A stretch of DNA of 21,188 nucleotides from a virus: positions 1-21,188 of the IMG/VR virus record IMGVR_UViG_3300042294_002087. One strand, given 5' to 3'. Position 1 is the stretch's first letter, and every line of letters begins with the position of its first letter. The notes below the pieces were generated by a model. That model did not search any database and was not told where the DNA came from. It worked only from the letters and a program-made list of their open reading frames with translations. Below, piece after piece: positions 4,474 through 20,436 of this stretch. The translations under genes and the position numbers were made by a program.

Positions 4474-4904
4474 TGGCAGATAACGTAGGATATACACCGG
4501 GGAGCGGTGCAACAATCGCAGCAGATGATATAGGGGGTATCCTGTTTCAAAGGGTGAAGCCTGTGTGGGGTGTTGATGGAGTTGCACAGGATGTAAACGA
4601 AACTACCCCTCTGCCCGTAACTGCCACACAGGAGTTAATGCAGGCTATCGAAGCGATGCGGATGGCTATACACGCTTTAACCCGTACTATTGGACTTGCG
4701 CAGGTTAACCCGCTCACAGGGCGTATGCTTGTTGACCCATCGGGGGTTACTTCGCCTGTATCCGGTACGGTATCTGCCAACCAATCAGGTACCTGGAACA
4801 TAACCAACCTTGCCACCATTGGCGGTGTGGCTGCTAACTCACAGGTTCAATCATTTGAGAGAATGACTGCCGATAATTTAAGAAGAAATATAAACGTAAC
4901 ATAA
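4473..4904 (+). CDS. Conserved phage tail-side protein (VGYTPGSG family)
   Basis: The 143-residue protein starts MADNVGYTPGSGATIAADDI and then GGILFQRVKPVWG, a start seen in many tailed-phage proteins next to tail or receptor-binding genes. A short helix (LMQAIEAMRMAIHALTRTIG) is followed by a low-complexity beta part with SGTVSANQSGTW and a basic RRNINV end. It is coupled on both sides by one-base TAATG overlaps. No biochemical function is known to me; a structural role is inferred from conservation and position. Confidence 0.62.
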   Translation: MADNVGYTPGSGATIAADDIGGILFQRVKPVWGVDGVAQDVNETTPLPVTATQELMQAIEAMRMAIHALTRTIGLAQVNPLTGRMLVDPSGVTSPVSGTVSANQSGTWNITNLATIGGVAANSQVQSFERMTADNLRRNINVT

Positions 4905-6337
4905 TGCCTACAACTAACGGAAATAGACAGATATTAGATTTGAAGAGATGGGAGCAAGTAACCCCTGCACCTTCGGCATCAGCAGCAGGTGCATTCATTG
5001 CATCTTCCCGGCACTTTAAGCAGAATCAGTTATATGTCAACGGTGCAACTACTGCCTGGCTTTATAACCCTAATGAAGATGGATGGGTGCAACTTCCTTC
5101 GCCAGCATTAGCCGGGTCGGTATCAGCCGGGGCATCCGCTACCGCAGGGGCATGGAGTACAGGTACAACTATTGGCTCATCGCTGACTGCAACGGCAGGT
5201 ACTACCTCTACAATTACAACCAACCAAACTATCGCCCGCTCACTTGCAGGGTATTCAATACACATCTTATCCGGGCCTAACGCAGGAGTTACGCTGCAAA
5301 TCGTTTCTAACACTATTGGAACTAACGCAATTATTACCGTAGCAACACAGGCATCGGCTTTCTCTGCTTCTACGGTTTATCGTTTATGCACTCCGGTATG
5401 GTATGTACTGGGTGCAGGTACTTTGGCAGCAGGTTCTTTCCGTAAATATGACTACGCAACAAATACATGGACTACCCTATCTCAAACCGGATTGGCTGCA
5501 TCACTTGCCACGGATGGCAAACTGATAGCAACACCTTCTTGGTATGACCAGGATTATGTGGCATTAGCTTCCGGTACGGCAACATCCGCAACGGCAACCA
5601 CTTTGGTAAATACCGGTAAGACATGGACTGCATCTCAATGGATTAACTCACAGGTTAGAATTGTAAGCGGAACAGGGGCAGGGCAACTTCGTACGATTAC
5701 GGCAAACACAACCGACACGCTCACCGTTGCAACGTGGACTACAACACCGGATGCAACTTCGGTGTATCAAATTAGCGGGAATGATAACTTCCTGTACTAC
5801 ATGGGTAATGGTGCAGTTACCATGTACCGATACGATATAGGTGCCAACACCTGGAGTACCTTATCCCCCGGTGCAGCAAGGGCAGCAGCACCCGGAGCGG
5901 GGATGTCAGGGCATTGGATTTATGGTGTTACTAATAGCACATGGACAAACGAATCAGCTATTATCAACGGGCGTAGAATCTACTCATTCAGAGGTAGTGC
6001 AGGTGCCGTACTTGATTACTACGACATAGCCGCTAACACATGGGTATCGGGTGTAACGTATGCACCTTTGACCGAAACATTCACAACGGGTACAAAGTAT
6101 GCGTACTACGCAGATAACATTTACATACAAAAGGATGCCACAAACAGGTGGTTCAAATACCATATAGCAGGTAATGCGATGGATGGATGGAATACTATGC
6201 CTGTAGTGCAAGGCGCTGCCATCGTTGGGGATACGGCTTTTGATGTTGAATATCAAGATGGGGCAACGGTTATAATCTATGTGTATATGTTGATGAACAC
6301 ATCAACTCTAATGTTCAGACAAATGGCAATTCAATAA
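4904..6337 (+). CDS. Kelch-like beta-propeller structural protein
   Basis: The 477-residue protein contains at least five blade-like motifs of the form Y-D-x(3)-N-x-W-x(2)-L: LYNPNEDGWVQLP, YDYATNTWTTL, YRYDIGANTWSTL, YYDIAANTWVSG and FKYHIAGNAMDGWNTM. This is the kelch signature of a beta-propeller. Two related insertions interrupt the blades, one centred on ILSGPNAGVTLQIVSNT (residues about 100-165) and one on IVSGTGAGQLRTITANT (about 225-295); both end in a TSVY-type strand. There is no signal peptide. Its context suggests a virion surface protein, perhaps binding carbohydrate or protein. The repeats are visible in the sequence; the role is inferred. Confidence 0.65.
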   Translation: MPTTNGNRQILDLKRWEQVTPAPSASAAGAFIASSRHFKQNQLYVNGATTAWLYNPNEDGWVQLPSPALAGSVSAGASATAGAWSTGTTIGSSLTATAGTTSTITTNQTIARSLAGYSIHILSGPNAGVTLQIVSNTIGTNAIITVATQASAFSASTVYRLCTPVWYVLGAGTLAAGSFRKYDYATNTWTTLSQTGLAASLATDGKLIATPSWYDQDYVALASGTATSATATTLVNTGKTWTASQWINSQVRIVSGTGAGQLRTITANTTDTLTVATWTTTPDATSVYQISGNDNFLYYMGNGAVTMYRYDIGANTWSTLSPGAARAAAPGAGMSGHWIYGVTNSTWTNESAIINGRRIYSFRGSAGAVLDYYDIAANTWVSGVTYAPLTETFTTGTKYAYYADNIYIQKDATNRWFKYHIAGNAMDGWNTMPVVQGAAIVGDTAFDVEYQDGATVIIYVYMLMNTSTLMFRQMAIQ

Positions 6338-6338
6338 T

Positions 6339-6494
6339 ATGACACAGGCAGAAACTAAAGAAATACTATCACGGCAAATCAATCAACTTGAGATGCTGAT
6401 TTCTGCCGCAAAGCAGAGGGGAGACTTGAAGGCAGCCATACAATTAACAACTGAATTAACCGAGGCAAAGGATGCTTTTAACGCTATTACGTAA
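6339..6494 (+). CDS. 51-residue helical small protein
   Basis: ATG 6339 lies one base after the TAA of the propeller gene and gives a 51-residue protein ending at TAA 6492-6494. It is strongly helical and charged, with alternating Lys/Glu and Leu/Ile positions (QINQLEMLISAAKQRGDL, AAIQLTTELTEAKDAF), typical of a short coiled coil. It overlaps the next gene by 23 bases. Its spacing, codon pattern and lack of other coding frames support a real gene. Function unknown; it could be a small structural or chaperone-like protein. Confidence 0.6.
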   Translation: MTQAETKEILSRQINQLEMLISAAKQRGDLKAAIQLTTELTEAKDAFNAIT

Positions 6495-7215
6495 TACTGG
6501 AGCAACAGGCAATACCATTGTTGCGGATAGGGGTGAATACACCCTAACGGGTAACGTAATAGATTTAAGAAGTGCATTTCAGATAGCTGCAACGGTAGCA
6601 GCCTTCACCCTATCCGGTGGTGATGCTAACTTTCAACTGGGCAAAACCGTTGTAGCCGATACGGCTACCTACACGCTGACCGGAAACGATGCAGGCACAA
6701 CCGCAGCACGTAGAATCGCAGCCGATCAATCAACGTATGTACTCACAGGGTTCGATGCCAACTTCCAAGTAGTCAAATCAGTCGCAGCCGATAGAGGTAC
6801 ATTTGTACTTACCGGAAACGATGCCGGGGTTATAGCTTCACGTGCTATTGCAGCCGATAGGGGAACATTTACGCTTATAGGCAACGCAGCCACAATAGAT
6901 ATACTTCGCACACTCGTAGCGGACAAAGGCACTTATCTACTCACAGGCAACGATGCCACATTGCAGAAAGAAGGGGATGCCGTACTCACCGCCGAACGTG
7001 GTATATTTATACTCACAGGTTTTGATGCGAATCTCATTGTACCTTTGTATCAGTTCAACTCAAACGTAACAATTCAATCAGCGCAAACTACACAGGTAAA
7101 TATTGTAAGTCAGCAGAATAGTACCGTTACTATTGATAACGAACAAAGCACAACGGTAACAATACAGAAATCAAATGATTATAACGTAACTATAACCTCA
7201 ATATTTGAATCATGA
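6472..7215 (+). CDS. 22-residue tandem-repeat structural protein
   Basis: The 247-residue protein holds eight copies of a unit of about 22 residues (residues 17-195) with consensus AADRGT(Y/F)xLTG(N/F)DA followed by a variable half. The last two copies are 24 and 23 residues. A second region (about 196-247) carries a looser VTI-type repeat (SNVTIQ, STVTID, TTVTIQ, YNVTIT). Such repeats probably form a beta-solenoid or stacked fibre shaft. There is no signal peptide. It overlaps the small helical gene upstream by 23 bases and the next gene by 4 (ATGA). A role in the tail or capsid surface is inferred; the LTGNDA repeat is familiar from phage structural proteins. Confidence 0.65.
   Translation: MLLTLLRNTGATGNTIVADRGEYTLTGNVIDLRSAFQIAATVAAFTLSGGDANFQLGKTVVADTATYTLTGNDAGTTAARRIAADQSTYVLTGFDANFQVVKSVAADRGTFVLTGNDAGVIASRAIAADRGTFTLIGNAATIDILRTLVADKGTYLLTGNDATLQKEGDAVLTAERGIFILTGFDANLIVPLYQFNSNVTIQSAQTTQVNIVSQQNSTVTIDNEQSTTVTIQKSNDYNVTITSIFES
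6520..7056 (+). repeat. Eight in-frame tandem repeats of about 66 bp
   Basis: These bases encode the eight 22-24 residue units of the LTGNDA protein. The copies differ in sequence at many positions, so they are old or selected to diverge, and are not a fresh slippage product. Confidence 0.7.
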
Positions 7216-7484
7216 TCTACAACGGAACTAACGTAACGATAAAACTAACAGAGCAAGGGGTTAATTTACACAACCCTACTTCTGCCGACATTTACTACAA
7301 AAAACCCAATGGGGAAACAGGTTCATGGGGAGCAACTATTATAGCTAACCATGAGATAACCTACACCACAACGGTTGGCGATATAGATGTTCCAGGCGTT
7401 TGGATATTGCAGGGGTTCGTTGTAAAGGCCGGGGTAACTTACAAAACTTCAATCGCACAAATGATTGTGGAAGCAAGTTTATGA
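7212..7484 (+). CDS. Ig-like/BppU-type tail-associated protein
   Basis: The 90-residue protein follows a pattern common in phage tail-side Ig-like proteins: a start with NGTNVTIKLTEQG, an IYYKKPNGETGSW strand pair, an ITYTTTVGDIDVPGVW turn and an LQGFVVKAG strand, ending in a V-E-A-S-L strand. The PNG / YTTT-GD-D-PG-W-LQG positions match small beta-sandwich proteins such as the N-terminal part of BppU-like baseplate proteins. It overlaps both neighbours by 4 bases (ATGA), so it is translated with them. The fold is a moderate inference; the exact role is unknown. Confidence 0.55.
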   Translation: MIYNGTNVTIKLTEQGVNLHNPTSADIYYKKPNGETGSWGATIIANHEITYTTTVGDIDVPGVWILQGFVVKAGVTYKTSIAQMIVEASL

Positions 7485-8473
7485 CATTATCAGATATAGC
7501 ACGTTCATACAGGGATAAGTACGGTATGCAAATGCCATCGCTCAAACTTGCACGTATAATGTATAATGAAAATAAGCTATCATTCAAGCACGTGGAAGCA
7601 GCACGCAGCATCCTGCGAAGGATTGAGGGAAAGAATCAGAGTCCGGAAAAAGCAATCAAAACCAAATATTATATGCCGAATGACAGACCGAAAAACCCGT
7701 ATAAGTTACCGGAATCGTATCAGGAAGAACGCAAGCCGTATAAGCTACCGATTGCCTGTAACAACATTCTTTTGATTTCTGATTTACACATTCCATACCA
7801 CGATATTAATGCCGTTACATTAGCACTTAATTACGGAGTTGAAAATAAGATTAACACTATTTTAATCAACGGGGATTTAATAGATAATCACCAAGTAAGC
7901 AGGTTCGAGCGTGATCCAAAGAAGCGCTCGGTTAAACAGGAATTTGATGCAACAAAGCAGTTTCTTCGGGTATTACGTGCCACGTTCCCGGATGCTCATA
8001 TCTATTGGTTAAAGGGCAACCATTGTATAAGATGGGAAAAATTCCTGTTACAAAAAGCATCCGAAATATGGGATGACCCGTATTTTCATCTGGAGGAAAG
8101 ATTACGCCTAAATGAAGAAAGGGTACATCTGTTAGATGATAAGGTACTTGTAAAAGCAGGGAAGTTATCTATAACTCACGGGCATCACATATTCAAGGGT
8201 GTATTTGCCCCGGTATCACCTGCACGTGGAGCGTTTCTAAGGGCAAAGCAGACCGTTATTGTTGGGCATCTTCATAGGGCATCCCATCATCCGGAGATTA
8301 CTTTGGATGGAGAAGTTATCAGTTGTTGGAGTACTGGCTGCCTTTGTGAACTTAGACCAGACTATTCGCCATTGGTAAGCAATAGCCAACACGGATTCGC
8401 ACACATTACTATTGAGAAAGATGGCAATTTTCATGTTAAGAACTTTCAGATAATTAACGGCAAATTGTACTAA
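7481..8473 (+). CDS. Calcineurin-like metallophosphoesterase
   Basis: The start at ATG 7481 overlaps the previous stop by 4 bases and gives 330 residues; an in-frame start at 7400 would lie inside the previous gene and is unlikely. All metal-binding motifs are present: SDLHIP (Asp101, His103), NGDLIDN (Asp132), KGNH (Asn180, His181), THGHH (His233, His235) and GHLHRA (His263, His265). Residues 1-50 look like a small helical domain (IARSYRDKYG, ILRRIEGK) separate from the enzyme. Phage enzymes of this class act on phosphodiesters in nucleic acids or nucleotides; the substrate here is unknown. It ends the rightward structural block, next to an HExxH gene. Confidence 0.85.
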   Translation: MTLSDIARSYRDKYGMQMPSLKLARIMYNENKLSFKHVEAARSILRRIEGKNQSPEKAIKTKYYMPNDRPKNPYKLPESYQEERKPYKLPIACNNILLISDLHIPYHDINAVTLALNYGVENKINTILINGDLIDNHQVSRFERDPKKRSVKQEFDATKQFLRVLRATFPDAHIYWLKGNHCIRWEKFLLQKASEIWDDPYFHLEERLRLNEERVHLLDDKVLVKAGKLSITHGHHIFKGVFAPVSPARGAFLRAKQTVIVGHLHRASHHPEITLDGEVISCWSTGCLCELRPDYSPLVSNSQHGFAHITIEKDGNFHVKNFQIINGKLY

Positions 8474-8475
8474 CC

Positions 8476-8709
8476 ATGAAAGTAATCCATCGCAAGTTAG
8501 GGAAGGAAAAAGCGTATGGATTAGCCCACATAGATTCCAATACCATTGAGATAGATAGCCGACTGAAACCTAAGCATAAGTTAGAGATTACAATTCACGA
8601 AGCGTTGCACATACTTTATCCGACTGATTCGGAAACTGCCATTGTACGGAAATCAAAGCGGTTATGTGCGGTGTTATGGCAGGAGGGGTATAGGAAGGTG
8701 GAAAAATGA
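8476..8709 (+). CDS. Small HExxH metallopeptidase-like protein
   Basis: The 77-residue protein has HEALH at residues 42-46, a zinc-binding HExxH motif preceded by LEITI as in minimal metallopeptidases, then a Glu in YPTDSETAIV that could be the third ligand and an LWQEGYRK end. It is shorter than the usual M78 or SprT-type enzymes, so it may be a stripped-down relative or a zinc protein without protease activity. It starts 2 bases after the phosphoesterase stop and is the last rightward gene before convergent leftward genes. Confidence 0.6.
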   Translation: MKVIHRKLGKEKAYGLAHIDSNTIEIDSRLKPKHKLEITIHEALHILYPTDSETAIVRKSKRLCAVLWQEGYRKVEK

Positions 8710-8726
8710 TAGGCCTTCCACCTATC
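8696..8726. other. Competing inverted repeats at the end of the HExxH gene
   Basis: AGGTGGA (8696-8702) can pair with TCCACCT (8717-8723), while GATAGG (8708-8713) can pair with CCTATC (8721-8726) over a 7-base loop. The two hairpins exclude each other. They lie between convergent genes but have no T-tract, so I do not call a terminator. Confidence 0.35.
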
Positions 8727-8783
8727 CGGCAATGCTGACTTTTGTTACTGGGTGTCGACTCATGCTATTGGAACCCACTATCT

Positions 8784-8879
8784 TTACTTATCCTTACTCC
8801 GGTGCTTATTCTCATACTCACCGATTCTGTATGCCATGATAAGGGTTCCGAAGAACATTGCTGCAATAATGTAAATCAT
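8784..8879 (-). CDS. 31-residue membrane microprotein
   Basis: The ATG (8879-8877) overlaps the TGA of the upstream DnaA-like gene in an ATGA arrangement, and the frame runs 31 codons to TAA at 8784. The sequence is one hydrophobic helix (IYIIAAMFFGTLIMAYRI) followed by a charged tail (EYENKHRSKDK), so a single-pass membrane protein with its basic tail probably inside. Translational coupling and a clean membrane-plus-tail layout favour a real gene despite its size. Role unknown; similar phage microproteins can affect host membrane or superinfection, but nothing here proves that. Confidence 0.5.
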   Translation of the reverse strand: MIYIIAAMFFGTLIMAYRIGEYENKHRSKDK

Positions 8880-9310
8880 AAAATTACGTTAAGGTTTTCA
8901 ATATGGGTTTTGTACTCGTTATCGAACTTTGAAGTAAGGCTATTATTAACTGATTTCTTAGCGTGGATAACGCTGGTATGATCTCTGCTGCCGAATATAC
9001 CGCCCACCTCTGATAAAGTGATTTCCGTTTGATTCAGCAAATACCACATGGTTATGTGGCGGGCTACTACGATATTTCTCATCCGGCTTTTAGATTGCAA
9101 AGACTCAAACGGTATTCGAAAGTAGTTACTGCAAGTTTTAATGATGTTATCTATTTGCAGTTTTGAGTTCAATACGATAGGTACATTGACTTTCCCTTTC
9201 ATACCGGGGAGAGCAAAGTAGCTTATCCTTTGCTTTGGCGTGGATGGCAAGTAAAGAGTAATAAAGGGGGATGCGTTTAAGCGTTCTGTTTTGAGTTTTT
9301 TGGTTAGCAT
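8876..9310 (-). CDS. DnaA domain-IV-only DNA-binding protein
   Basis: From ATG 9310 the protein has 144 residues. Residues about 54-125 match DnaA domain IV: NIIKTCSNYFRIPFESL, then the basic loop SKSRMRNIVVARHITMWYL and the signature GSRDHTSVIHA (GxRDHTTVxHA in DnaA), whose Arg and His residues read the DnaA box. No AAA+ ATPase domain is present, so it can bind but not itself oligomerise with ATP like DnaA. The longer frame from 9382 would place its start before a terminator hairpin and is rejected. The gene lies downstream of that terminator, so it may need readthrough or its own promoter. It could direct replication at the DnaA-box-like site near 16961 or act as a regulator. Confidence 0.78.
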   Translation of the reverse strand: MLTKKLKTERLNASPFITLYLPSTPKQRISYFALPGMKGKVNVPIVLNSKLQIDNIIKTCSNYFRIPFESLQSKSRMRNIVVARHITMWYLLNQTEITLSEVGGIFGSRDHTSVIHAKKSVNNSLTSKFDNEYKTHIENLNVIL

Positions 9311-9336
9311 TGTGCATTGTTTGAAATTGAAGTGAT

Positions 9337-9365
9337 AAAAACCCCCCGACACTTCTGCCAGGGGG
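9337..9365 (-). terminator. Rho-independent terminator after the leftward 129-residue gene
   Basis: Read on the minus strand, CCCCCTGGCA (9365-9356) pairs with TGTCGGGGG (9351-9342, two G-T wobbles) around a GAAG tetraloop to give a 10-bp stem, followed by TTTTT (9341-9337). It begins 10 bases beyond the stop of the gene at 9375-9764 and lies upstream of the DnaA-like gene, so it would separate or attenuate the two. Its sequence is related to the terminator at 16924. Confidence 0.78.
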
Positions 9366-9374
9366 AAACCAAAA

Positions 9375-9764
9375 CTAACCACGAGATAGTAAATTTACGT
9401 ATTCTGCGCTGAATGGCAAGGCAAATAACTCTTGCATTAATACCCGGCTTACCAAAATTGCCCCATTGTTATAAGTTGAACGGATAGACTTGTAAGGGAT
9501 ATGCATTTCGTTAAAGTCTAAATCTTCAAGCATACGCTCCTTTGTAGGGTATTCCTCATACCGATTAGCGTTCGGGCTAAAGATTTCATACACCGTGCGA
9601 ATATCTACTAACTCCGTGCGCTGCATGTAAAATTTGATGGTGTAGATAGGCTCTCCGGCATCATCGTAACATACGAAGGAGTTACCTTTGCGGTCATACT
9701 GTAAGCCCGTACGCTCTGCATACTGTTGGGCTAATTGCGGGGTTGAAAGTACTACTGTTGTCAT
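9375..9764 (-). CDS. 129-residue hypothetical protein
   Basis: A soluble protein without a signal peptide or membrane helix. It opens with TPQLAQQYAERTG, then has a GNSFVCYDDAGEPIYTIKFY beta-hairpin region and an alpha-rich second half. The frame is clean, starts 11 bases after the 55-residue gene on the same strand and is followed at once by a strong terminator, so it is a real member of the leftward operon behind the repressor. I do not recognise the family. Genes in this position in phages are often host-takeover or counter-defence proteins, but no motif here supports a specific role. Confidence 0.62.
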   Translation of the reverse strand: MTTVVLSTPQLAQQYAERTGLQYDRKGNSFVCYDDAGEPIYTIKFYMQRTELVDIRTVYEIFSPNANRYEEYPTKERMLEDLDFNEMHIPYKSIRSTYNNGAILVSRVLMQELFALPFSAEYVNLLSRG

Positions 9765-9775
9765 GTGTTTGGTTT

Positions 9776-9943
9776 TTATGGTTTGAGTTTGGGTTTACAT
9801 TTGAAGATGGCAACGAGATTGCCAGTATAACTATCTAATCCATCTTGGAAGTTTTCAGCTAAATAAAATCCTATATCATTAGTCCAATTAATTTGCACTA
9901 AACAAGGGAATGATTCTCCCGGGAATGAATTGTTAATTATCAT
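9776..9943 (-). CDS. 55-residue hypothetical protein
   Basis: ATG 9943 to TAA 9776 encodes 55 residues with an LVQINWTNDIGFYLAENF stretch, a GNLVAIFKCKPKLKP end, and alternating hydrophobic residues that suggest a small beta-rich fold. It starts 4 bases after the stop of the 47-residue gene and ends 11 bases before the 129-residue gene, so it fits the leftward operon exactly. Function unknown. It is shorter than common gene-calling limits. Confidence 0.52.
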   Translation of the reverse strand: MIINNSFPGESFPCLVQINWTNDIGFYLAENFQDGLDSYTGNLVAIFKCKPKLKP

Positions 9944-9947
9944 ACAA

Positions 9948-10091
9948 TTAATATAATGAATGAATGGTTAAAACTCCGGTGTATTTATTATCTCGCCTAA
10001 TCCTTACACATTGCTTCTTCGCATCGTGCAAACTTTGAGCGAGGATAATATCTCGCAGGATGTTGTTAAAGTAGATTAGGTAGGTGTTCAT
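9948..10091 (-). CDS. 47-residue hypothetical protein
   Basis: ATG 10091 to TAA 9948 encodes 47 residues: NTYLIYFNNILRDIILAQSL, then a basic patch (KKQCVRIRRDNK) and a GVLTIHSLY end. It lies 38 bases beyond the repressor stop and 4 bases before the next leftward gene. The helical N-terminal half and basic middle could suit a small nucleic-acid-binding or regulatory protein, but this is a guess. The support is operon spacing and an uninterrupted frame. Confidence 0.5.
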   Translation of the reverse strand: MNTYLIYFNNILRDIILAQSLHDAKKQCVRIRRDNKYTGVLTIHSLY

Positions 10092-10129
10092 GTGTCAAAG
10101 ATATAATTCTATTCCAATACCACCCAAAT

Positions 10130-10306
10130 TTATTTTATACTTTTTTTCAATTCTTTTAGTATCTCTTTGATTTTCAATGATTCATCTTCCGTAATTTGCG
10201 ACTTACCATTACGAAATTCGTGTAATTTCAGTTTACGGATGCCCGCTTTTCTTTCAATTTCGGTAAGGTTTAACATTCTGTCTTGTAAGATTGTGTGTAG
10301 ATTCAT
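10130..10306 (-). CDS. 58-residue HTH repressor (XRE/Cro-like)
   Basis: ATG 10306 to TAA 10130 encodes 58 residues. LTEIERKAGIRKLKLHEFRN reads as a helix-turn-helix (Ala-Gly at the turn, recognition helix KLKLHEFRNGK), followed by ITEDESLKIKEILKEL, the usual third and fourth helices of a Cro/XRE fold. It is shorter than most XRE repressors and has no added domain. It begins just left of a region with two divergent promoters sharing one 17-bp palindrome, the expected place for an autoregulated phage switch protein. The HTH is visible; the target site is inferred from position. Confidence 0.68.
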   Translation of the reverse strand: MNLHTILQDRMLNLTEIERKAGIRKLKLHEFRNGKSQITEDESLKIKEILKELKKSIK

Positions 10307-10324
10307 GATTAAAATATATTTTTA

Positions 10325-10355
10325 CAAACCTACAAAATAATTTTGGTAGTATCAA
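10325..10355 (-). promoter_or_regulatory. Leftward promoter of the repressor operon
   Basis: On the minus strand a TTG (10355-10353) is followed after 20 bases by TAGGTTTG (10332-10325), a full match to the Bacteroidota pattern TTG-N19-21-TAnnTTTG. The repressor ATG is 18 bases downstream, giving a short leader. Confidence 0.68.
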
Positions 10356-10357
10356 AA
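10341..10357. promoter_or_regulatory. 17-bp palindromic operator shared by divergent promoters
   Basis: TTTTGGTAGTATCAAAA is symmetric about its central G except at one position on each side (G/A with T/C). The left arm contains the TTG of the rightward promoter (10343-10345) and the right arm contains the TTG, read in reverse, of the leftward promoter (10353-10355). A bound dimer would cover both -33 elements. The adjacent HTH protein is the obvious ligand; that assignment is inference. Confidence 0.62.
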
Positions 10358-10373
10358 CTATTTCCAATCTTTG
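10343..10373 (+). promoter_or_regulatory. Rightward promoter of the recombination/replication operon
   Basis: TTG (10343-10345), 20 bases, then AATCTTTG (10366-10373) matches TAnnTTTG at seven of eight positions (first T is A). The ATG of the RecT-like gene is 20 bases further on. It overlaps the leftward promoter and the palindrome. Confidence 0.58.
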
Positions 10374-10393
10374 AGTCCTAAAACTTTAAACAC

Positions 10394-11089
10394 ATGAACA
10401 TCGTAAAACACACCGCCACCGAAATAATGAGCATCGGTAAGGCGTTTGCGGAATCGGGAATGTTTCCCGACATCAAATCCGCTGCTCAAGCAATCGTAAA
10501 AATTCAAGCAGGTGCTGAGTTGGGTATCGCACCTTTTGCGGCAATGTCCGGTATCCACATTATTAGCGGTAAGCCTACCATTGGGGCGGGCGTTATGGCT
10601 GCAATGGTAAAAGCATCGGGTAAGTACAACTATCGGGTAACGGAGCAGACCGACAAAGTATGCTCTATTATTTTCTACGAAGGTGCTGAAATCATTGGCA
10701 CTTCTACCTTCACTATCGAAGATGCAAAGAAAGCAGGTACTAAAAACACCGAGAAGTTTCCCCGTAATATGCTATTTGCAAGGGCTATGAGTAACGGTGT
10801 TAAGTGGTACACTCCGGATGTATTTGCAGGGCCGGTGTACGTGCCAGAGGAAATGGAATCAGTAGGTATTAATGGCAGCATTTACGATATAGCTGCCGAA
10901 ACATGGAAAACCAAACGCATCCTAACAGATGAGCAATTCCAAAACGCTATCGTAAAAATTCAAGATGGGGAATGTATCAAAGGCAGTACCGTAACCGTTT
11001 ACGATTGGGTACGTACAGAATGCCAACTTACCGAAGCACAACAATCAACATTTAACCTTTTAAACACTACAGACAATGGAACTGATTAA
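10394..11089 (+). CDS. RecT-like single-strand annealing protein (putative)
   Basis: The 231-residue protein has the layout of a RecT-like phage family: an N-terminal helix block with AGAELGIAPFAAMSGIHII, then GKPTIGAGVMAAMVKASG, a middle strand pair (IGTSTFTIEDAKKAG), and KFPRNMLFARAMSNGVKWY followed by PDVFAGPVYVPEEM. The last 60 residues are variable. Proteins of this kind pair complementary single strands during phage recombination and repair. It is the first gene of the rightward operon, its stop overlaps the next gene by 14 bases, and an SSB-like gene and a nuclease lie further downstream. I assign it from the motif pattern only, so the subfamily is uncertain. Confidence 0.55.
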   Translation: MNIVKHTATEIMSIGKAFAESGMFPDIKSAAQAIVKIQAGAELGIAPFAAMSGIHIISGKPTIGAGVMAAMVKASGKYNYRVTEQTDKVCSIIFYEGAEIIGTSTFTIEDAKKAGTKNTEKFPRNMLFARAMSNGVKWYTPDVFAGPVYVPEEMESVGINGSIYDIAAETWKTKRILTDEQFQNAIVKIQDGECIKGSTVTVYDWVRTECQLTEAQQSTFNLLNTTDNGTD

Positions 11090-11537
11090 ATTTAACCACA
11101 CTACAAAGGAAGAGCGCACACAGGTTGTACGTGAAATCTTCCAAGAAGTATTAGAGGGCCGCATTAACCCTATGGAGTTACACATCCGGATGAAATGCCT
11201 GGAGGAAGTAGTAAAGCAACTTACCTCAATGCCTGCGTACAAAGCCATCGTACTGGATGATGCTGAGAAACATGGCAAGTCCTTTCAGTATCACAATGCG
11301 AAGGTTGATATTCGGGAGGTTGGGGTGAAGTATGATTATAGTAACTGCGGGAGTATGACACTTCATGAATTGTACACAGAACAAACCTTAATAAATAATT
11401 CAATAAAAGATTTTGAAACGTATTTAAAAGGTGTTCCAAAAACAGGAATTGAAGTAGTTAATATTCATGGCGAAGTAGAAACTCATTACCCACCTGCGAA
11501 AACTTCTACCACGAGTGTAGCGGTGACGCTTAAATAG
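11076..11537 (+). CDS. Hypothetical protein of the recombination module
   Basis: The 153-residue protein is helical in its first half (TTKEERTQVVREIFQEVLEG, MKCLEEVVKQL) and has a conserved-looking VKYDYSNCGSM turn, a second helical stretch with an FETYLKGVPKTGIEV block, and a Thr/Ser-rich tail. It overlaps the RecT-like gene by 14 bases. Proteins with a KYDYSNCG motif occur next to recombination genes in Bacteroidota phages, but I do not know their activity. A partner of the annealing protein is one possibility. Confidence 0.55.
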   Translation: MELIKFNHTTKEERTQVVREIFQEVLEGRINPMELHIRMKCLEEVVKQLTSMPAYKAIVLDDAEKHGKSFQYHNAKVDIREVGVKYDYSNCGSMTLHELYTEQTLINNSIKDFETYLKGVPKTGIEVVNIHGEVETHYPPAKTSTTSVAVTLK

Positions 11538-11546
11538 AAAATGGCA

Positions 11547-11637
11547 ACCACCTTGGCGTAATCGGGAATGAATACCGACTTGGGATAACGCCCCCGTGTT
11601 ATGCGGGGAGATACAGGTTCGAATCCTGTAGGTGGTT
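11547..11637 (+). tRNA. tRNA-like element with enlarged D-loop (possibly degenerate)
   Basis: A 7-bp acceptor stem (ACCACCT 11547-11553 with AGGTGGT 11630-11636) and a canonical T-arm (ACAGG-TTCGAAT-CCTGT, 11613-11629) are perfect. GCGT (11556-11559) pairs with ACGC (11588-11591) as a D-stem, but the loop is 28 bases instead of about 8-11 and holds a small hairpin (TCGG/CCGA). CCCCG/CGGGG (11592-11596, 11604-11608) makes an anticodon-type stem with a 7-base loop TGTTATG. Position 33 is G, not the universal U, and the central triplet would be UUA; shifting the stem by one would centre GTT (Asn) but breaks pairing. CCA is not encoded. It sits cleanly between two genes. It may be a decayed tRNA, a regulatory mimic or an unusual tRNA. 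Confidence 0.5.
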
Positions 11638-11646
11638 CTAAATCAT

Positions 11647-11667
11647 ACCGGCTCTGATTAACCGGCT
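11647..11667 (+). repeat. Short direct repeat before the AT-rich gene
   Basis: ACCGGCT occurs twice 14 bases apart (11647-11653, 11661-11667), just ahead of the ATG at 11673. Each copy contains the palindrome CCGG. It could be a small operator or the edge of an insertion; evidence is weak. Confidence 0.3.
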
Positions 11668-11672
11668 TTGTT

Positions 11673-12041
11673 ATGAACGATTATAAAGAGAAAATTCAAT
11701 TACTCATTGATTATCTAAAAGAAAAGCAGCCATTCCGGAATAAGGAGGTTTGCGAATTGTTTAAAGTAAGTCTTGCATTATCAACAGTATTGAGAAATGC
11801 AGGGTATTTAGAGAAAAATAAAGATGGGGCATTTATTGCCACCGATTTGATTACTTCACTTACATTTGATATTTACACTACATTAATGAGTGAGTATCAT
11901 AAAAAAATGAATGAAAAGTACGTATCTCAAAAAACACAAAAACCAGTAACAATACAAGATTTCTTAAAAAACAGAATGGGTAAAAACGATGCTAAAGAAT
12001 TAGCAACCGCAATTTACAACGTAATTAAACCATACCTATAA
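11673..12041 (+). CDS. AT-rich HTH-like hypothetical protein
   Basis: The 122-residue protein is Lys/Glu-rich and almost all helical. Residues about 17-47 (QPFRNKEVCELFKVSLALST, then VLRNAGYLEKNKDG) look like a winged helix-turn-helix, followed by a helical second half with KNRMGKNDAKELATAIYNVI. By hand count the gene is about 30% G+C, far below the 47% of the gene at 13523, which suggests recent acquisition. It follows the tRNA-like element by 35 bases and stands alone between the recombination and SSB genes. A regulatory or DNA-binding role is a guess from the fold. Confidence 0.52.
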   Translation: MNDYKEKIQLLIDYLKEKQPFRNKEVCELFKVSLALSTVLRNAGYLEKNKDGAFIATDLITSLTFDIYTTLMSEYHKKMNEKYVSQKTQKPVTIQDFLKNRMGKNDAKELATAIYNVIKPYL

Positions 12042-12079
12042 CTATTAAAGGCGCTGGCTCCCTATATCCAGTCTTAAAC

Positions 12080-12346
12080 ATGGCTACATTCTACACAGGC
12101 AGCATCTGCCTATCAGACATCCCGAAAGAGAAAATTACCGAAGCCAAAAACGGTAAGAAGTATCTTAACCTTACCCTATGGGTGAATGATACCGCCGATC
12201 AGTACGGTAACATTGGCAGCATTCAAGTATCACAGACTAAGGAGCAAAGGGATGCACAGGAAAAGAAGCAGTATATTGGGAATTTTAAGGCACCGAATAC
12301 ACAGGTAGCCGCTGCATCTATTGATGACCAAAGTTTACCCTTTTAA
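12080..12346 (+). CDS. Small SSB-like single-stranded DNA-binding protein (putative)
   Basis: The 88-residue protein reads as a small OB-type beta fold: KKYLNLTLWVND strand pair, a YGNIGSIQVSQTKEQRD turn, and a KKQYIGNFK strand. It ends in DDQSLPF, an acidic, hydrophobic tail like the DDDIPF tail through which bacterial SSB recruits replication and repair proteins. It is about half the usual SSB length, as in some phage versions. It lies between the recombination and DNA modification genes. The tail is visible; DNA binding is inferred. Confidence 0.5.
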   Translation: MATFYTGSICLSDIPKEKITEAKNGKKYLNLTLWVNDTADQYGNIGSIQVSQTKEQRDAQEKKQYIGNFKAPNTQVAAASIDDQSLPF

Positions 12347-12353
12347 CTCACCA

Positions 12354-12377
12354 GGGAGGGGCAAATCAACCCCTCCC
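12354..12377 (+). terminator. Perfect 8-bp hairpin after the SSB-like gene (possible terminator)
   Basis: GGGAGGGG (12354-12361) pairs perfectly with CCCCTCCC (12370-12377) around an 8-base loop. It begins 8 bases after the stop codon. Only TTAATC follows, so termination may be partial or it may be an mRNA-stabilising hairpin. Confidence 0.45.
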
Positions 12378-12390
12378 TTAATCACAAACC

Positions 12391-12585
12391 ATGACCATCC
12401 ACCAATACATCGAAAGAAAATACTTTCGGCTAAACACTATGGCTACAATCCGCAACGGGGTACTTTACCATTGGGTTAATAATCGTTGGATGCCGAACAA
12501 GGAATTTGAACGGATATACCCTTTGCCGAATAAGGTGGGGAAGCAGTTGACTAATTTGGATTCACGGAAGAATAGCCTACTATGA
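12391..12585 (+). CDS. 64-residue hypothetical protein
   Basis: A basic, aromatic-rich small protein (HQYIERKYFRLNTMATIRNG, then VLYHWVNNRWMP and a KLTN-poor tail). It has no signal peptide or membrane helix. Its stop overlaps the ATG of the methyltransferase by 4 bases (ATGA), so the two are translated together. I do not recognise the family; coupling suggests a role linked to the modification genes, but nothing more can be said. Confidence 0.5.
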   Translation: MTIHQYIERKYFRLNTMATIRNGVLYHWVNNRWMPNKEFERIYPLPNKVGKQLTNLDSRKNSLL

Positions 12586-13523
12586 TTGAGTTAAATAAGA
12601 TTTACAACGAGCCATGTTTGGAAACGCTAAAACGTATGCCTAACGATTTTTTAGATTGTGTAATTACTTCCCCTCCTTACTGGCAACTTAGAGATTACGG
12701 CTATGAAGGGCAATGGGGTTTAGAGCCAACGTACAATCAATACCTTGAACACCTTTGGGAATTAATGGATGAAATATACAGGGTATTGAAACCAGATGGC
12801 ACTTGTTGGGTTAATTTGGGGGATACTTATGGTACTCAATCGGGCGGATTAAAAGGTAAAAGCACTTTTGACCCGAAAAATAAAAATGCAACTATTCAGG
12901 TAATTGAGCAATCCAAAACAATACACAAATGCCTCCTCCTTATCCCTCACCGTTTTGCCATTGGTTGTATTGATAGAGGTTGGATAGTTCGCAACGATAT
13001 AGTATGGGCAAAGCGTAATGGTATGCCTGAATCAGTTACTGATAGGTTTAGCAAAAAGCATGAGTATTTTTTCTTCATGGTAAAATCAGAAAAGTATTAT
13101 TTTGATTTAGATGCGGTGAGGTCTAAGCACATACACGCAAACGATAAAAGAAATGATGGGGAACGGCATATTTATAAAGAAGGTGTTAAATCTATGAATA
13201 ACGATATGTTGGCCACAAATGCAGTATCATTTAACCCATTAGGCAAAAACCCCGGCAGCGTTTCTGATTTTTGGGATATACCTACAAAGCCATCTTCTAA
13301 TCAGCATTATGCAGCGTATAACGATGAATTGATAAAGAAGCCTATTTTAGCCGGATGCCCTGAAGGTGGTATAATCTATGACCCGTTTATGGGTACTGGC
13401 AGCACGGCTGAATCGGCATTAAGGGCTAACCGTAAATTTATCGGCAGCGAAATGTCAGAAAAGTATATTGATATTGCCAACAAAAGATTAGAGCCTTATT
13501 TACTTCAATCAACATTATTCTAA
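12582..13523 (+). CDS. N4-cytosine/N6-adenine DNA methyltransferase (beta class)
   Basis: The 313-residue enzyme has the catalytic motif IV TSPPYW at residues 29-34 near the N-terminus and the SAM-binding motif I DPFMGTGST at 267-275 near the C-terminus, the order of beta-class amino-methyltransferases. LRDYG, QWGLEPT and GTCWVNLGDTYG between them are typical of a phage family. The SPPYW form leans to m4C but does not exclude m6A. It overlaps the upstream gene by 4 bases and the nuclease gene by 1. No restriction enzyme partner is seen, so it probably protects phage DNA. The target sequence cannot be read from the protein. Confidence 0.88.
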   Translation: MIELNKIYNEPCLETLKRMPNDFLDCVITSPPYWQLRDYGYEGQWGLEPTYNQYLEHLWELMDEIYRVLKPDGTCWVNLGDTYGTQSGGLKGKSTFDPKNKNATIQVIEQSKTIHKCLLLIPHRFAIGCIDRGWIVRNDIVWAKRNGMPESVTDRFSKKHEYFFFMVKSEKYYFDLDAVRSKHIHANDKRNDGERHIYKEGVKSMNNDMLATNAVSFNPLGKNPGSVSDFWDIPTKPSSNQHYAAYNDELIKKPILAGCPEGGIIYDPFMGTGSTAESALRANRKFIGSEMSEKYIDIANKRLEPYLLQSTLF

Positions 13524-13948
13524 TGAAACAACCCCCCCTCTGGAAGATAAGATATAACACCGCCCATTATAATTACACTTTAGAGCGTACCCCGAACGTG
13601 GTAAAGGATGGATTCTACACCGGGCCCCCTACGCCTATGGTAACGAAATCCAATGGGCTGACTACGTTTATTATTAACTTCCTGAACTGGTCGGGCTACC
13701 GGGCTACACGAATCAATACTATGGGCAGGCAGATTAACGGGAAGTTTATCCCATCCGCAACAAGGAAGGGTACGGCTGATATTTCGGCAACCGTGAAAGG
13801 AAAATCAGTTATGATAGAAATTAAAGTAGGTGCCGACCGCCCCCGCCCTGAACAACTTGCCGAGCAGCAAAGGGAACGGCAAGCGGGGGGGATTTATGAG
13901 TTTGTGCATACGCCGGAGGAATTCTTTTTATTATTTGATAAATTATAA
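13523..13948 (+). CDS. VRR-NUC/PD-(D/E)XK-type nuclease (putative)
   Basis: The 141-residue protein has the order expected for a VRR-NUC-like fold: a basic N-terminal region, then GTADISATVKGKSVMIEIK with the Asp and E-x-K pair of a PD-(D/E)XK centre, QLAEQQRERQAGG with a conserved Gln-helix, and an FVHTPEEFFLLF end. Such phage enzymes cut branched or structured DNA in recombination and replication. It sits between two methyltransferase genes and 3 bases before the second. It is 47% G+C, against 33% for that neighbour. The catalytic residues are visible; substrate is inferred. Confidence 0.65.
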   Translation: MKQPPLWKIRYNTAHYNYTLERTPNVVKDGFYTGPPTPMVTKSNGLTTFIINFLNWSGYRATRINTMGRQINGKFIPSATRKGTADISATVKGKSVMIEIKVGADRPRPEQLAEQQRERQAGGIYEFVHTPEEFFLLFDKL

Positions 13949-13951
13949 ATT

Positions 13952-14656
13952 ATGTTTAGTTACTACGGAAGTAAATCAAAAATAGTGGACTATTATCCAC
14001 CACCAAAATATAATAAGATAATTGAGCCATTTGCAGGTAGTGCAAGGTATAGCTTGAAGTATTGGCAGAATGATGTTTTACTTGTAGATAAATACCCTGT
14101 TATAGTTGATGTATGGAACTATCTTAAAAATGCAAGTGAGCAAGATATTTTAAAGCTACCAATATTGAAAAAAGGTGATGATGTTAGAAAATTTGGTTTG
14201 ACAAAAGATGAAATGCTTTTACTTGGATTTTCTTGTCAAGCAGGAGTATCAACCCCAAACTATACTACATCAAAATTGGGCGAGCAAAACTCAAAAACAT
14301 TTTTAAAGAATATTGCAAGTCAACTACACAAAATAAGACATTGGGAAATAAAACTTTTAAGCTACGATGAACTTGAAAATAAAGAGTGTACGTGGTTTAT
14401 TGACCCGCCTTATCAGTTTGGTGGCCACAAATACAAGCATAGCAATAAGACAATAGATTTTAATAACCTTTCTGAATGGTGCAAGAGCAGAAATGGTCAA
14501 GCAATAGTATGCGAAAATACGAAAGCTAATTGGTTGCCATTTAAAGGCGTAGTTGATTTAGTAGGAACTGTTAAGATTAAAACTACCGAAGCAATATGGT
14601 CGAATCATAAAACTAACTATGATAACCAACAGTTAACTATATTTGACACCCTATAA
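13952..14656 (+). CDS. D12-class adenine-N6 DNA methyltransferase (Dam-like)
   Basis: The 234-residue enzyme begins with YYGSKSKI (motif X), has EPFAGSARYSL (motif I SAM site, residues 25-35) and WFIDPPYQ (motif IV, DPPY at 151-154), the alpha-class order of Dam and D12 enzymes that methylate adenine in DNA. It is near the low end of D12 length (about 230-290). By hand count the gene is 33% G+C, distinctly AT-richer than the nuclease gene before it, so it was probably acquired separately. A second methyltransferase with another fold nearby suggests protection against more than one host restriction system. Confidence 0.85.
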   Translation: MFSYYGSKSKIVDYYPPPKYNKIIEPFAGSARYSLKYWQNDVLLVDKYPVIVDVWNYLKNASEQDILKLPILKKGDDVRKFGLTKDEMLLLGFSCQAGVSTPNYTTSKLGEQNSKTFLKNIASQLHKIRHWEIKLLSYDELENKECTWFIDPPYQFGGHKYKHSNKTIDFNNLSEWCKSRNGQAIVCENTKANWLPFKGVVDLVGTVKIKTTEAIWSNHKTNYDNQQLTIFDTL

Positions 14657-14668
14657 CCACCACCACCC

Positions 14669-16870
14669 ATGCACCAATACACCGACTACCAATCACTTGG
14701 ATTAAAAGTCATCCCCATACAATGGGATAGCCAGGCTAAACAACCCGTATCACATCGCAACTGGTCTAACCCGGATGACTTGCACCTCCGCCCTACGGAT
14801 AATGGGTTAATGATTCTTACAGGCAATAACTACGGATGCCTTGACTTTGACCTAAAGAATACAAAGGATAGAGAACTATTCAGTAAGTGGATGGCTATTA
14901 TAACCAACGAGGCATCGGAAATCTTTAGCAAGGTATTCATTGAGCAAACCCGCAACGCAGGTTACCACGTATGGCTAAACTACGCAGCACTACCGAGCAA
15001 AACACCGCTTGCAGAATCCCCGGAGGGTAACGAGGTTATCGCCCTGTATTCTAATGGGCCTGTAGTTTACACATTTCCAACACCCGGCTATACAGAATTT
15101 CACCAAAGTATGGAAGATGTGCAGGAGTTAACCGAATCGGAGTACAACTACCTTATAGAAGTTTCACAATACTTTAACGAATACAAGCCAAAGTATGACC
15201 CAAGCAAGAAAGCTATCAGCTACCCCGCGGGGTATGAATCGCAGTTGGCAGAATTTGACAAGGGTATTACAGATGAAGCGTTTGACACTATTTTGCAATC
15301 AATAGGATTACTACCCATACAGGGCTACCGCTACGGTAAGAATGATAAGTTTCAAGCCTACCGCCGCAAGGGTAGTGATTCGGCCGGCATATCCGCTAAA
15401 GTGTACTACAACGCTCGCAGGGTTATGATATTCTCGGCATCCATGAGTAACTTTCCCCATTGGCACAACAAAGAGCAGTATCCTGTCTGGTGCTTGCCTC
15501 CATCGTTTATTCTGTTCTACCACCTCGGCAGGGATTGGAATGCCGTACTCAAACACATAGGCATTGAACCCGTAGAACAGGGTTACCCGTTTAGTATTTT
15601 CCCACAAATTATTAACAATTCGCTGCACGAAGTAGCAACTGAAATGAGTCTTTGCCCGGAGTTTCTCGCAACCGCCGGAATATGGACTATATCCTCGCTT
15701 GCAGGGAACTGCTATACATCCGACTTCCACAATGTTAAAAACATCGTATTTGCCATAATGATTGCCCCGGTATCGGTTGGTAAGACTCCGGCATTCAAAG
15801 CTATGTGTGAGGAACCATTAGCCGACCTGCTGAAATCAGAAGATGCAGCCTACAAATTAGCAATGGATAACTGGCTACTTGAGAAAGCAGCCGCTAATGT
15901 CAATAAGGAATCATTCAGCAAGCCTAAACCCAAACGCTTTCACCCATTCGCAGTTGATGGCACAACGGAGGGTTACATAGCCCTAATGCAAGACCAGGAG
16001 GCAGGGATGGGTGTTTACCATGATGAAGCGGAAACTATCCTAAATGCAGGGGCGCATAAAGCGAATAACGATGCCATATCTTTCTTTACTCAAGCATTCA
16101 CCGGAGGCAGGTACACTCAAATCAGAGCGGATCGGGAGAAAGAAAGGGTAGTTAAATCTCTTAACATATCCCTTTTGATGGGAACGCAGCCATCAAGGTT
16201 AGCACACATATTCGGGGCTGATAAAATTCAATCAGGATTCGCAAGCCGTTTCCTAATGGTAAAATCCGATTACATAAAACTCAATGAAGATGCCGACCCG
16301 TTTAGCGGTGGCCGGCAAATGTGCAAGGAGTGGAAGGACTTAGTTACTCACCTTTACCGGATTAACAAAGAATTTGCAGCCGGGGATTGTGCGCCCATAC
16401 GAATTGAGATTACACCGGATGCGAAAACACTGTACACGAAGTACTACAGGCAGAATTTAGCGGATGCGAATAGCCGGATGGCAGGCAAAGCGGAGCAGTA
16501 CATAATGGGCGCGGAAGCTAAAATGAGCGCATACTTTCCCCGGATGTGTCATGTGGTAAGTATCTGTCATAATCCACTAAAACCCGTTATAACGGTGGAA
16601 ATAGTCAACAAAGCATATAACCTGTACAGGTACTATGCAGAGAGTACTATATCGATAATTAGTGAGTTATGCGCTGAAACCGAATCCGGACTGCCTGCAG
16701 ACCTTCGCCTGTTAGTTGATAACCTACCGCCAAAGTTTACCACAAAGGAGGTAGATTTGCTATGTATTAGGTTCAACATTAAGCCTAAGAGGTTTTTTAA
16801 TGCGATTCGTAGGGCTGACTTTGCAAGGGTGATTAAGAGGGTTGCGCATGGGCAGTATGAGAAAATGTAG
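14669..16870 (+). CDS. Primase-polymerase/helicase fusion (DUF3987-type)
   Basis: The 733-residue protein joins a prim-pol domain to a helicase-type ATPase. Residues 1-145 carry the archaeo-eukaryotic primase motifs: LDFD (Asp59, Asp61), NAGYHVWL (His100) and a third motif with Glu122 and the SNGPVVYTFPTPGY turn. The second part (about 305-720) matches DUF3987: Walker A APVSVGKT (366-373, Ala in place of the first Gly), Walker B YHDEAE (Asp452, Glu453), and GFASRF, a likely arginine-finger region. It would prime and unwind phage DNA. It is the last gene of the rightward operon, followed by a terminator and an origin-like region. Confidence 0.8.
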   Translation: MHQYTDYQSLGLKVIPIQWDSQAKQPVSHRNWSNPDDLHLRPTDNGLMILTGNNYGCLDFDLKNTKDRELFSKWMAIITNEASEIFSKVFIEQTRNAGYHVWLNYAALPSKTPLAESPEGNEVIALYSNGPVVYTFPTPGYTEFHQSMEDVQELTESEYNYLIEVSQYFNEYKPKYDPSKKAISYPAGYESQLAEFDKGITDEAFDTILQSIGLLPIQGYRYGKNDKFQAYRRKGSDSAGISAKVYYNARRVMIFSASMSNFPHWHNKEQYPVWCLPPSFILFYHLGRDWNAVLKHIGIEPVEQGYPFSIFPQIINNSLHEVATEMSLCPEFLATAGIWTISSLAGNCYTSDFHNVKNIVFAIMIAPVSVGKTPAFKAMCEEPLADLLKSEDAAYKLAMDNWLLEKAAANVNKESFSKPKPKRFHPFAVDGTTEGYIALMQDQEAGMGVYHDEAETILNAGAHKANNDAISFFTQAFTGGRYTQIRADREKERVVKSLNISLLMGTQPSRLAHIFGADKIQSGFASRFLMVKSDYIKLNEDADPFSGGRQMCKEWKDLVTHLYRINKEFAAGDCAPIRIEITPDAKTLYTKYYRQNLADANSRMAGKAEQYIMGAEAKMSAYFPRMCHVVSICHNPLKPVITVEIVNKAYNLYRYYAESTISIISELCAETESGLPADLRLLVDNLPPKFTTKEVDLLCIRFNIKPKRFFNAIRRADFARVIKRVAHGQYEKM

Positions 16871-16893
16871 TTGGTTACGATACATAACCGACT
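16869..16893 (+). other. 9-bp hairpin at the stop codon of the primase/helicase gene
   Basis: AGTTGGTTA (16869-16877) pairs with TAACCGACT (16885-16893) over a 7-base loop, with one G-T wobble. It has no T-tract, but a strong terminator follows 30 bases later, so it may protect the mRNA end or aid termination. Confidence 0.4.
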
Positions 16894-16923
16894 GAGATAA
16901 TATTTCATGTGGTGTTTTGGTTT

Positions 16924-16952
16924 CCCCTGGTGTTTCTACATCGGGGGTTTTT
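16924..16952 (+). terminator. Rho-independent terminator after the replication operon
   Basis: CCCCTGGTGT (16924-16933) pairs with ACATCGGGG (16938-16947, two G-T wobbles) around a TTCT tetraloop, giving a 10-bp stem followed by TTTTT. The upstream GTTTTGGTTTC also matches the start of the leftward terminator at 9365. Confidence 0.8.
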
Positions 16953-16960
16953 GTTGTTTA

Positions 16961-16969
16961 TTATACACA
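16961..16969 (+). promoter_or_regulatory. DnaA-box-like site
   Basis: TTATACACA fits the general DnaA-box form TTATNCACA. One copy only is seen, 8 bases after the terminator T-tract. The window also encodes a DnaA domain-IV protein (8876-9310), so a phage-specific interaction is possible. A single 9-base match can occur by chance. Confidence 0.35.
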
Positions 16970-17036
16970 TTGATGCCGTGTTTGATTGATAAAACCAACA
17001 TTTGTGAGCGATAAACTATATCATTTCGTTGCCATC

Positions 17037-17262
17037 AAATTCTCAATATTCTCACCTACTGAGAATTTATAACTAATTGATAATCATAGGCTAACTACCC
17101 ATATTCTCACTTGCTCGAGAATTTAAAGAAATAATAATTCTATATATTTATATATCTAATACTATACTATACTAAAGGGTGAGTGAGAATTTGAGAATAT
17201 TGAATAATTCACTCATTATCAATGTGTTACGTGAGAATTTGACATGGAATATGTGAGAATTT
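17037..17262. repeat. Nine iteron-like GAGAAT(T/A)T repeats
   Basis: Forward copies start at 17061, 17117, 17185, 17193 (GAGAATAT), 17233 and 17255; reverse copies start at 17037, 17046 (ATATTCTC) and 17101. Several extend to GTGAGAATTTG. Copies at 17037/17046 and at 17185/17193 are close pairs in opposite orientation on either side of an AT-rich core. This density and symmetry are far above chance. They look like binding sites for one protein. Confidence 0.68.
17125..17175. other. AT-rich core, possible DNA-unwinding element
   Basis: By hand count 45 of 51 bases are A or T, including TATATATTTATATAT and a run of ACTAT repeats (17161-17174). Iteron copies flank it on both sides, as in many origins where DNA melts. 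Confidence 0.45.
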
Positions 17263-17292
17263 GGTGGTTTGGGCGGTATGTGAGTACCTTTG
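17261..17292 (+). promoter_or_regulatory. Promoter of the small-terminase-like gene, overlapping the last repeat
   Basis: TTG (17261-17263), 21 bases, then TACCTTTG (17285-17292) is a full match to the Bacteroidota pattern. The ATG at 17317 lies 24 bases downstream. The TTG overlaps the end of the repeat at 17255, so a protein bound to the array could control it. Confidence 0.65.
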
Positions 17293-17316
17293 TAATTAAA
17301 TAGAGGTTTTTAGATT

Positions 17317-17586
17317 ATGGCAAAGGGAAAAAAGACTGGAGGCAGAACAAAAGGGGCGGTTAATCACTTCACCCGCTCGGTACGTGAGGTTATTACTGAT
17401 GCGTTCCACGAAATGCAACTTAAGCCAGGGGTTAATATGTTGGAATGGGGCGAACAAAATCCCACCGAATTTTACCGCTTGGCATCCAAACTAATCCCGC
17501 TACAGGTTGCCAACGATCCCGACAACCCAATGCCGACTACCATCATTCAGATAATACCCGACACCAAATCCCACCCGATTGTATAA
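17317..17586 (+). CDS. Small terminase subunit-like protein (putative)
   Basis: The 89-residue protein has a basic GKKTGGRTKGAVNHFTRSV start, a helical DNA-binding-like region, and the block LEWGEQNPTEFYRLASKLIP seen in proteins that lie near terminase genes in Bacteroidota phages. The last 20 residues are Pro/Ile-rich. It starts behind a clear promoter and an iteron array that could be a packaging or replication site. The expected large terminase is not adjacent; a glycosyltransferase gene follows instead. I am fairly unsure of the terminase role. Confidence 0.45.
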   Translation: MAKGKKTGGRTKGAVNHFTRSVREVITDAFHEMQLKPGVNMLEWGEQNPTEFYRLASKLIPLQVANDPDNPMPTTIIQIIPDTKSHPIV

Positions 17587-17650
17587 ATTGTGTATCTATT
17601 GTGGAAAACAAAAGTGTAGGTTACAGATGAACCACTCCAAAGATATTTGC

Positions 17651-17658
17651 TATCTTTG
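17651..17658 (+). promoter_or_regulatory. Possible -7 element before the glycosyltransferase cluster
   Basis: TATCTTTG matches TAnnTTTG and ends 19 bases before the ATG at 17678. No TTG stands at the usual spacing upstream, so the promoter may be weak or regulated, or the match may be chance. Confidence 0.35.
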
Positions 17659-17677
17659 TGAAACACGAGCAGAAACC

Positions 17678-18876: not shown

Positions 18877-18877
18877 C

Positions 18878-20435: not shown

Positions 20436-20436
20436 T

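Follow-up and report, generated by a model that had tools for sequence, protein, structure and literature searches.

Gene layout and promoters

The window analysed here is a stretch of 21,188 nucleotides from an IMG/VR virus record, in which two gene sets diverge from a short spacer (Table 1). The leftward set begins with the gene of a small helix-turn-helix (HTH) protein, and the rightward set is an operon of recombination and replication genes that opens with a RecT-like protein. These gene directions, with a Cro-like protein encoded to the left, agree with an earlier note on this DNA. The genes of both directions look early, since the leftward ones also include a DnaA-domain protein.

Table 1. 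Features of the early region, in window coordinates
Feature	Position	Strand	Basis or remark
DnaA domain IV-like protein, leftward set downstream of P2	8876-9382	-	PF08299, E 1e-20
P2, second leftward promoter, TTTG-N21-TATCTTTG	10096-10128	-	directly behind the HTH stop codon
Degenerate O2, TAAAATAAATTTGG (on the - strand)	10124-10137	.	type A phages have lost the left arm
HTH protein of XRE/Cro-like type, 58 aa, putative autoregulator	10130-10306	-	predicted structure, neighbours
PL -7 box, TAGGTTTG	10325-10332	-	reads CAAAccTA on the given strand
O1, candidate operator, CAAAATAATTTTGG	10333-10346	.	match to the P2 dyad motif
17-bp near-palindrome, TTTTGGTAGTATCAAAA	10341-10357	.	7/8 pairs match
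PR -33 box, TTTG	10342-10345	+	
PL -33 box	10353-10356	-	CAAA as written, TTTG on the - strand
PR -7 box, AATCTTTG	10366-10373	+	one mismatch to TAnnTTTG (T-12 is A)
ssDNA annealing protein, RecT-like, opening the rightward operon	10394-11089	+	PHROG 561, E 5e-24

The promoters follow the Bacteroidota sigma-A form (TTTG, 19–21 nt, TAnnTTTG). PL is a perfect TTTG-N20-TAnnTTTG, P2 is likewise perfect in the window, and PR reads TTTG-N20-AATCTTTG. PL and PR lie where the earlier note had placed them, both with 20-nt spacers, PR carrying one mismatch. Only 0.03% (0.0003) of spacer shuffles contain an overlapping back-to-back pair of this kind, and the divergent pair is therefore a significant signal; taken singly, PR had a frequency of 0.009 and PL of 0.06 in the shuffles. 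The whole window holds 6 perfect promoters against 1.35 expected. In Flavobacterium johnsoniae promoters, G at -10/-9 is disfavoured and almost never found, and the -33 motif is also weak (PMC6847099); the -7 box of PL in the window, TAGGTTTG, has G at both of these positions.

Scanning IMG/VR with the RecT protein gave 80 loci, and HTH-family and other RecT queries added more. The divergent promoters are conserved in relatives whose RecT is 61–100% identical. Among 26 distinct spacers of HTH-bearing phages, PL is perfect in every one, with 19–20 nt spacing and a -7 box of TAGG, TAGT, TACA, TACT or TATT followed by TTTG. PR has at most one mismatch in 15 of the 26, and its -7 box is not recognisable in the 11 type C spacers. 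The gene adjoining PL is often exchanged for other small ORFs, and in several relatives (L083, ~4950–5915; L103; L110–L112) the spacer is followed not by RecT but by an AAA-type ATPase that is not homologous to it (MNLQKAQRKQTMLRLNLSAPSGAGKTYSALLLAK). Because the spacer is kept despite these exchanges of flanking genes, it is a separate module.

Relatives carry 0–4 variable small ORFs between PL and the HTH gene, and the window none. In the relatives read, P2 always follows directly on the HTH gene, whose other neighbours change. ORFs of 64–154 aa occupy this interval in L011, L023, L025, L026, L029, L030 and L103. They gave no informative Pfam or PHROG match except for one DUF7448, and no anti-CRISPR gene was identified among them by these searches. 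Such variable ORFs are candidate accessory or counter-defence genes.

Operator candidates

The earlier note had described a near-palindrome at 10341–10357 with its arms on both -33 boxes, and this is indeed present. Alone it is not significant, because 17-mers with at least 7 of 8 matching pairs are at chance level (11 in the window vs 10.1 in shuffles), and 16% of shuffles of the divergent spacer contain one. Given both -33 boxes, three of the four remaining dyad pairs match in the window (P ~0.10); over nine alleles, 18 of 37 pairs beyond the boxes match vs 32% expected (P 0.02, kinship not corrected). The interior differs between alleles (GTAGTAT, GCAATAT, GTACTTC, GTAATTA, TAATTC, GAATATC, GTAACTTC), and the arms stand 6 to 8 apart. 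In the HTH-less relatives L037–L041, PR is kept with TTTGGTTGGTA and the CAAA arm is lost. Comparison of the spacer in relatives, which the earlier note had proposed, thus bore out the divergent promoters but not the palindrome, whose interior is not kept. The arms are simply two inverted -33 boxes, and 10341–10357 is not supported as the operator.

A better-conserved dyad lies at P2 in most relatives. The promoter itself is kept in relatives, the sole exception being L029, which has no recognisable -7 box. Phages of HTH types B, C and D have the P2 -33 box as the right arm of CCAAA-N4-TTTGG, a dyad that is exact in 16 of 19 non-A relatives and has one mismatch in L029, L030 and L015 (the last reads GCAAAAATTTTTGG). 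The 305 kb scanned contain 16 exact copies of the motif, one in each of 16 sequences, vs 1.0 expected; among other arm spacings only k=7 gave more than one match (four copies of one sequence). L097, which lay outside the 305-kb set, has an exact P2 dyad too. The dyad starts 2–4 nt behind the HTH stop codon in 19 of 20 non-A sequences, GCAAAAATTTTTGG standing there in L015, and the exact motif was found in only 1 of 29 HTH-less relatives. The dyad thus accompanies HTH genes. The relatives in these motif counts are related and so not independent samples; Fisher tests on the dyad, which treated them as independent and used slightly different tallies, are a guide only. Type A phages, the window included, have lost the CC arm (TAAAATAAATTTGG). 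With the group's best-conserved dyad at P2 in most relatives, the "minimal single-site" switch of the earlier note gives way to a circuit that, as read from sequence, is not single-site: three promoters and, in most relatives, two dyads.

A matrix of the P2 dyad, built after P2 was seen, was scored at every position of 22 sequences (~4,700–21,000 positions each). In 18 of the 22, one of the two top-scoring positions is a site that precedes the recT start by 60–61 nt, here called O1. In L003 it ranks fourth (11.2 bits), and in type D (L026, L029, L030) a similar site lies on the PL side (-41/-38), not at O1. The window O1 contains a perfect 13-bp palindrome, CAAAATAATTTTG, at 10333–10345, and has P 0.003 by dinucleotide shuffle and 0.0145 with all promoter boxes fixed; other O1 alleles give P 0.007–0.13 with the boxes fixed. 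It is imperfect relative to the P2 motif, and TTTGG is promoter sequence in its own right. Since O1 includes the -33 box of PR and reaches to the edge of the PL -7 box, occupation of this site could block both promoters, an effect that the earlier note had assigned to the palindrome at 10341–10357. These results suggest that O1 is a better operator candidate than 10341–10357.

Two other candidates were set aside. The best match to the P2 motif in the window, at 17637–17650 (CCAAAGATATTTGC), lies inside an ORF and was taken as coincidence. The P2 dyad was considered as an RNA hairpin, but folding predictions gave only -3 to -5 kcal/mol, which is weak; O1 precedes the start sites of both PL and PR and so would not be transcribed from either. 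Within window 10089–10103, the P2 -7 box ends 4 nt before the ATG of a 47-aa ORF, and P2 possibly gives a leaderless mRNA for this ORF (9948–10091) in the window and some relatives.

The HTH protein

The AlphaFold model of the HTH protein has four helices (pLDDT 84.6). Its structural neighbours are mostly of the XRE type, including the AcrIIA15 N-terminal domain, Aca11, C proteins, SinR and P22 c2, and the matches are modest (Foldseek E above 0.1; Z 5–7.5, below 8). The top structural neighbour, HNF-1A (Z 7.5), has 7% identity and was attributed to a general resemblance among helical proteins. No family matched at E 0.001, and Pfam scores fell below the curated cut-offs (HTH_26, 16.0 bits vs 22; HTH_19, 15.1 vs 30.2). 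The profile of the protein gave nothing meaningful against PDB sequences, and a PF01381 search of the relatives gave one weak match below cut-off. The nine aligned members have G-x-RKLK in common, within the putative HTH. The three main spacer alleles do not covary with HTH types A and B, as all three occur with both. An XRE-like fold is likely, and the best reading is that of a small XRE-like autoregulator that would act through an O1-type dyad.

Proposed circuit and alternatives

We propose that the locus serves as the early-transcription hub of a tailed phage. Host RNA polymerase would fire PL, leading to the HTH gene (after 0–4 small genes in relatives), and PR, leading to the recombination and replication genes, and P2 behind the HTH gene would supply further small genes and the DnaA-domain protein. 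The HTH protein would then bind, as a dimer, the short dyad CMAAA-N4-TTTGG. At O1, which takes in the PR -33 box as well as PL spacer sequence as far as the PL -7 box, a single dimer could shut both promoters; at O2 it would cover the -33 box of P2 in most relatives, whereas the window has only a degenerate O2. Early transcription would thereby be shut off by feedback, and the circuit would not be an immunity switch. Autoregulation by the HTH protein through O1 and O2 is, in our judgement, about evenly poised between right and wrong.

Alternatively, there may be no operator, the symmetry being a by-product of overlapping inverted -33 boxes and A-rich UP-like DNA in strong host promoters, with the HTH protein acting elsewhere. 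The chance-level palindrome count, the unconserved interior and the retention of PR without a CAAA arm in L037–L041 all fit this explanation, which we consider doubtful, as it leaves unexplained why the upstream arm CCAAA starts with CC, why the arms always stand 4 bp apart and why the dyad is nearly absent outside HTH-bearing phages. The model of the earlier note, with an HTH dimer on exactly 10341–10357 touching both -33 boxes symmetrically, draws on the well-paired window palindrome, on fuller TTTGG-N5-CCAAA versions in L003, L008 and L029 (N6 in L030), and on the excess of matching free pairs over the nine alleles, which is not corrected for kinship. However, its arms are already accounted for by the promoters and their spacing varies; moreover, the arms of the P2 dyad point the other way, and a single dimer could therefore not read the two sites alike. 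We regard this model as improbable.

The binder of the dyads might also be a host regulator or the DnaA-domain protein instead of the HTH protein. The leftward gene set does encode a DnaA domain IV protein, but the dyad tracks the HTH gene, adjoins the stop codon of that gene and hardly occurs in relatives that lack it, making such a binder very unlikely. We also take the P2-type dyad to be unlike a DnaA box, which counts against the DnaA-domain protein.

Comparison with known systems

The proposed circuit resembles those of anti-CRISPR-associated repressors such as Aca2 (PMC8434428) and the 65-aa Aca10 (PMC9410881). In both cases, a small HTH gene closes, or nearly closes, a set of small phage genes, and the inverted repeat overlaps the repressor's own promoter, as the candidate O1 does here. 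The acr-aca operon layout (PMC8434428, PMC9410881) is matched in relatives, whereas no small ORFs precede the HTH gene of the window. Unlike in Aca systems, no anti-CRISPR gene was identified at this locus, the candidate site reaches into a divergent promoter for replication genes as well, and there is a second dyad, downstream of the gene for the regulator. We think it unlikely, on present evidence, that virulent Bacteroidota phages have in the PL unit an accessory operon of Aca type, possibly for anti-defence, whose regulator gates PR and P2 as well through one dyad motif; if true, this would couple accessory-gene shut-off to replication timing. In Aca10, a short repeat overlapping the -35 box, ATTTG CAAAT, is not the true binding site (PMC9410881). 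This false repeat is very like the repeats here and is a warning for the palindrome at 10341–10357.

Lambdoid Cro/CI and P22 c2 also place an XRE-like HTH fold between divergent early promoters. Unlike in those systems, no integrase was found in the relatives, no second repressor gene was seen and there is no triple operator. Restriction-modification C proteins are small dimeric XRE autoregulators with a fold related to the HTH model, but the gene beside the HTH gene is not a restriction enzyme, and DNA methylase genes lie further off, in the rightward operon. Our search of the open-access literature found no paper on early-transcription regulation in Bacteroidota phages, about which little seems known. 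The proposed circuit is of an ordinary phage kind in a little-studied virus group, and its conserved dyad, small regulator and three host-type promoters make it directly testable.

Life style and host

A lysis-lysogeny reading of the switch is not supported by the relatives, as tyrosine and serine recombinases (PF00589, PF00239) were absent from 12 of them (up to 39 kb, possibly incomplete). With no integrase found in these relatives, a lysogeny switch is not the leading idea. In one 39-kb relative, scanned with one methylase from another, there are matches to portal, terminase, protease and endolysin as well as to glycosyltransferase and methyltransferase. In cultured phages, RecT matches are distant only and none covers 80% of the query; the nearest complete portal matches are from Cellulophaga phages (30%). 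This portal similarity and the promoter type point to Bacteroidota as the probable hosts of the virus. Among GTDB genome contigs there are two RecT relatives, in a Saprospiraceae MAG (L094) and in Pedobacter (L095), with no HTH-type hub in the ~300 bases upstream of RecT.

Other features

Searches against Rfam gave no match. A tRNA-Lys (ctt) of 92 bases was called at 11547–11638 of the window, inside the rightward early operon. The leftward operons of L018 and L026 contain many GMPQG/LPHGMPQ-type tandem repeats in ORFs and overlapping frames, and this region differs between relatives. At 17040–17270 of the window, multiple direct and inverted copies of TGAGAATTT (GTGAGAATTTG, AATTCTCA-like) lie in an intergenic region before an ORF at 17317. 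This ORF is preceded by a promoter-like TTTG of its own, at 17260. This repeat region could be an origin or an operator cluster.
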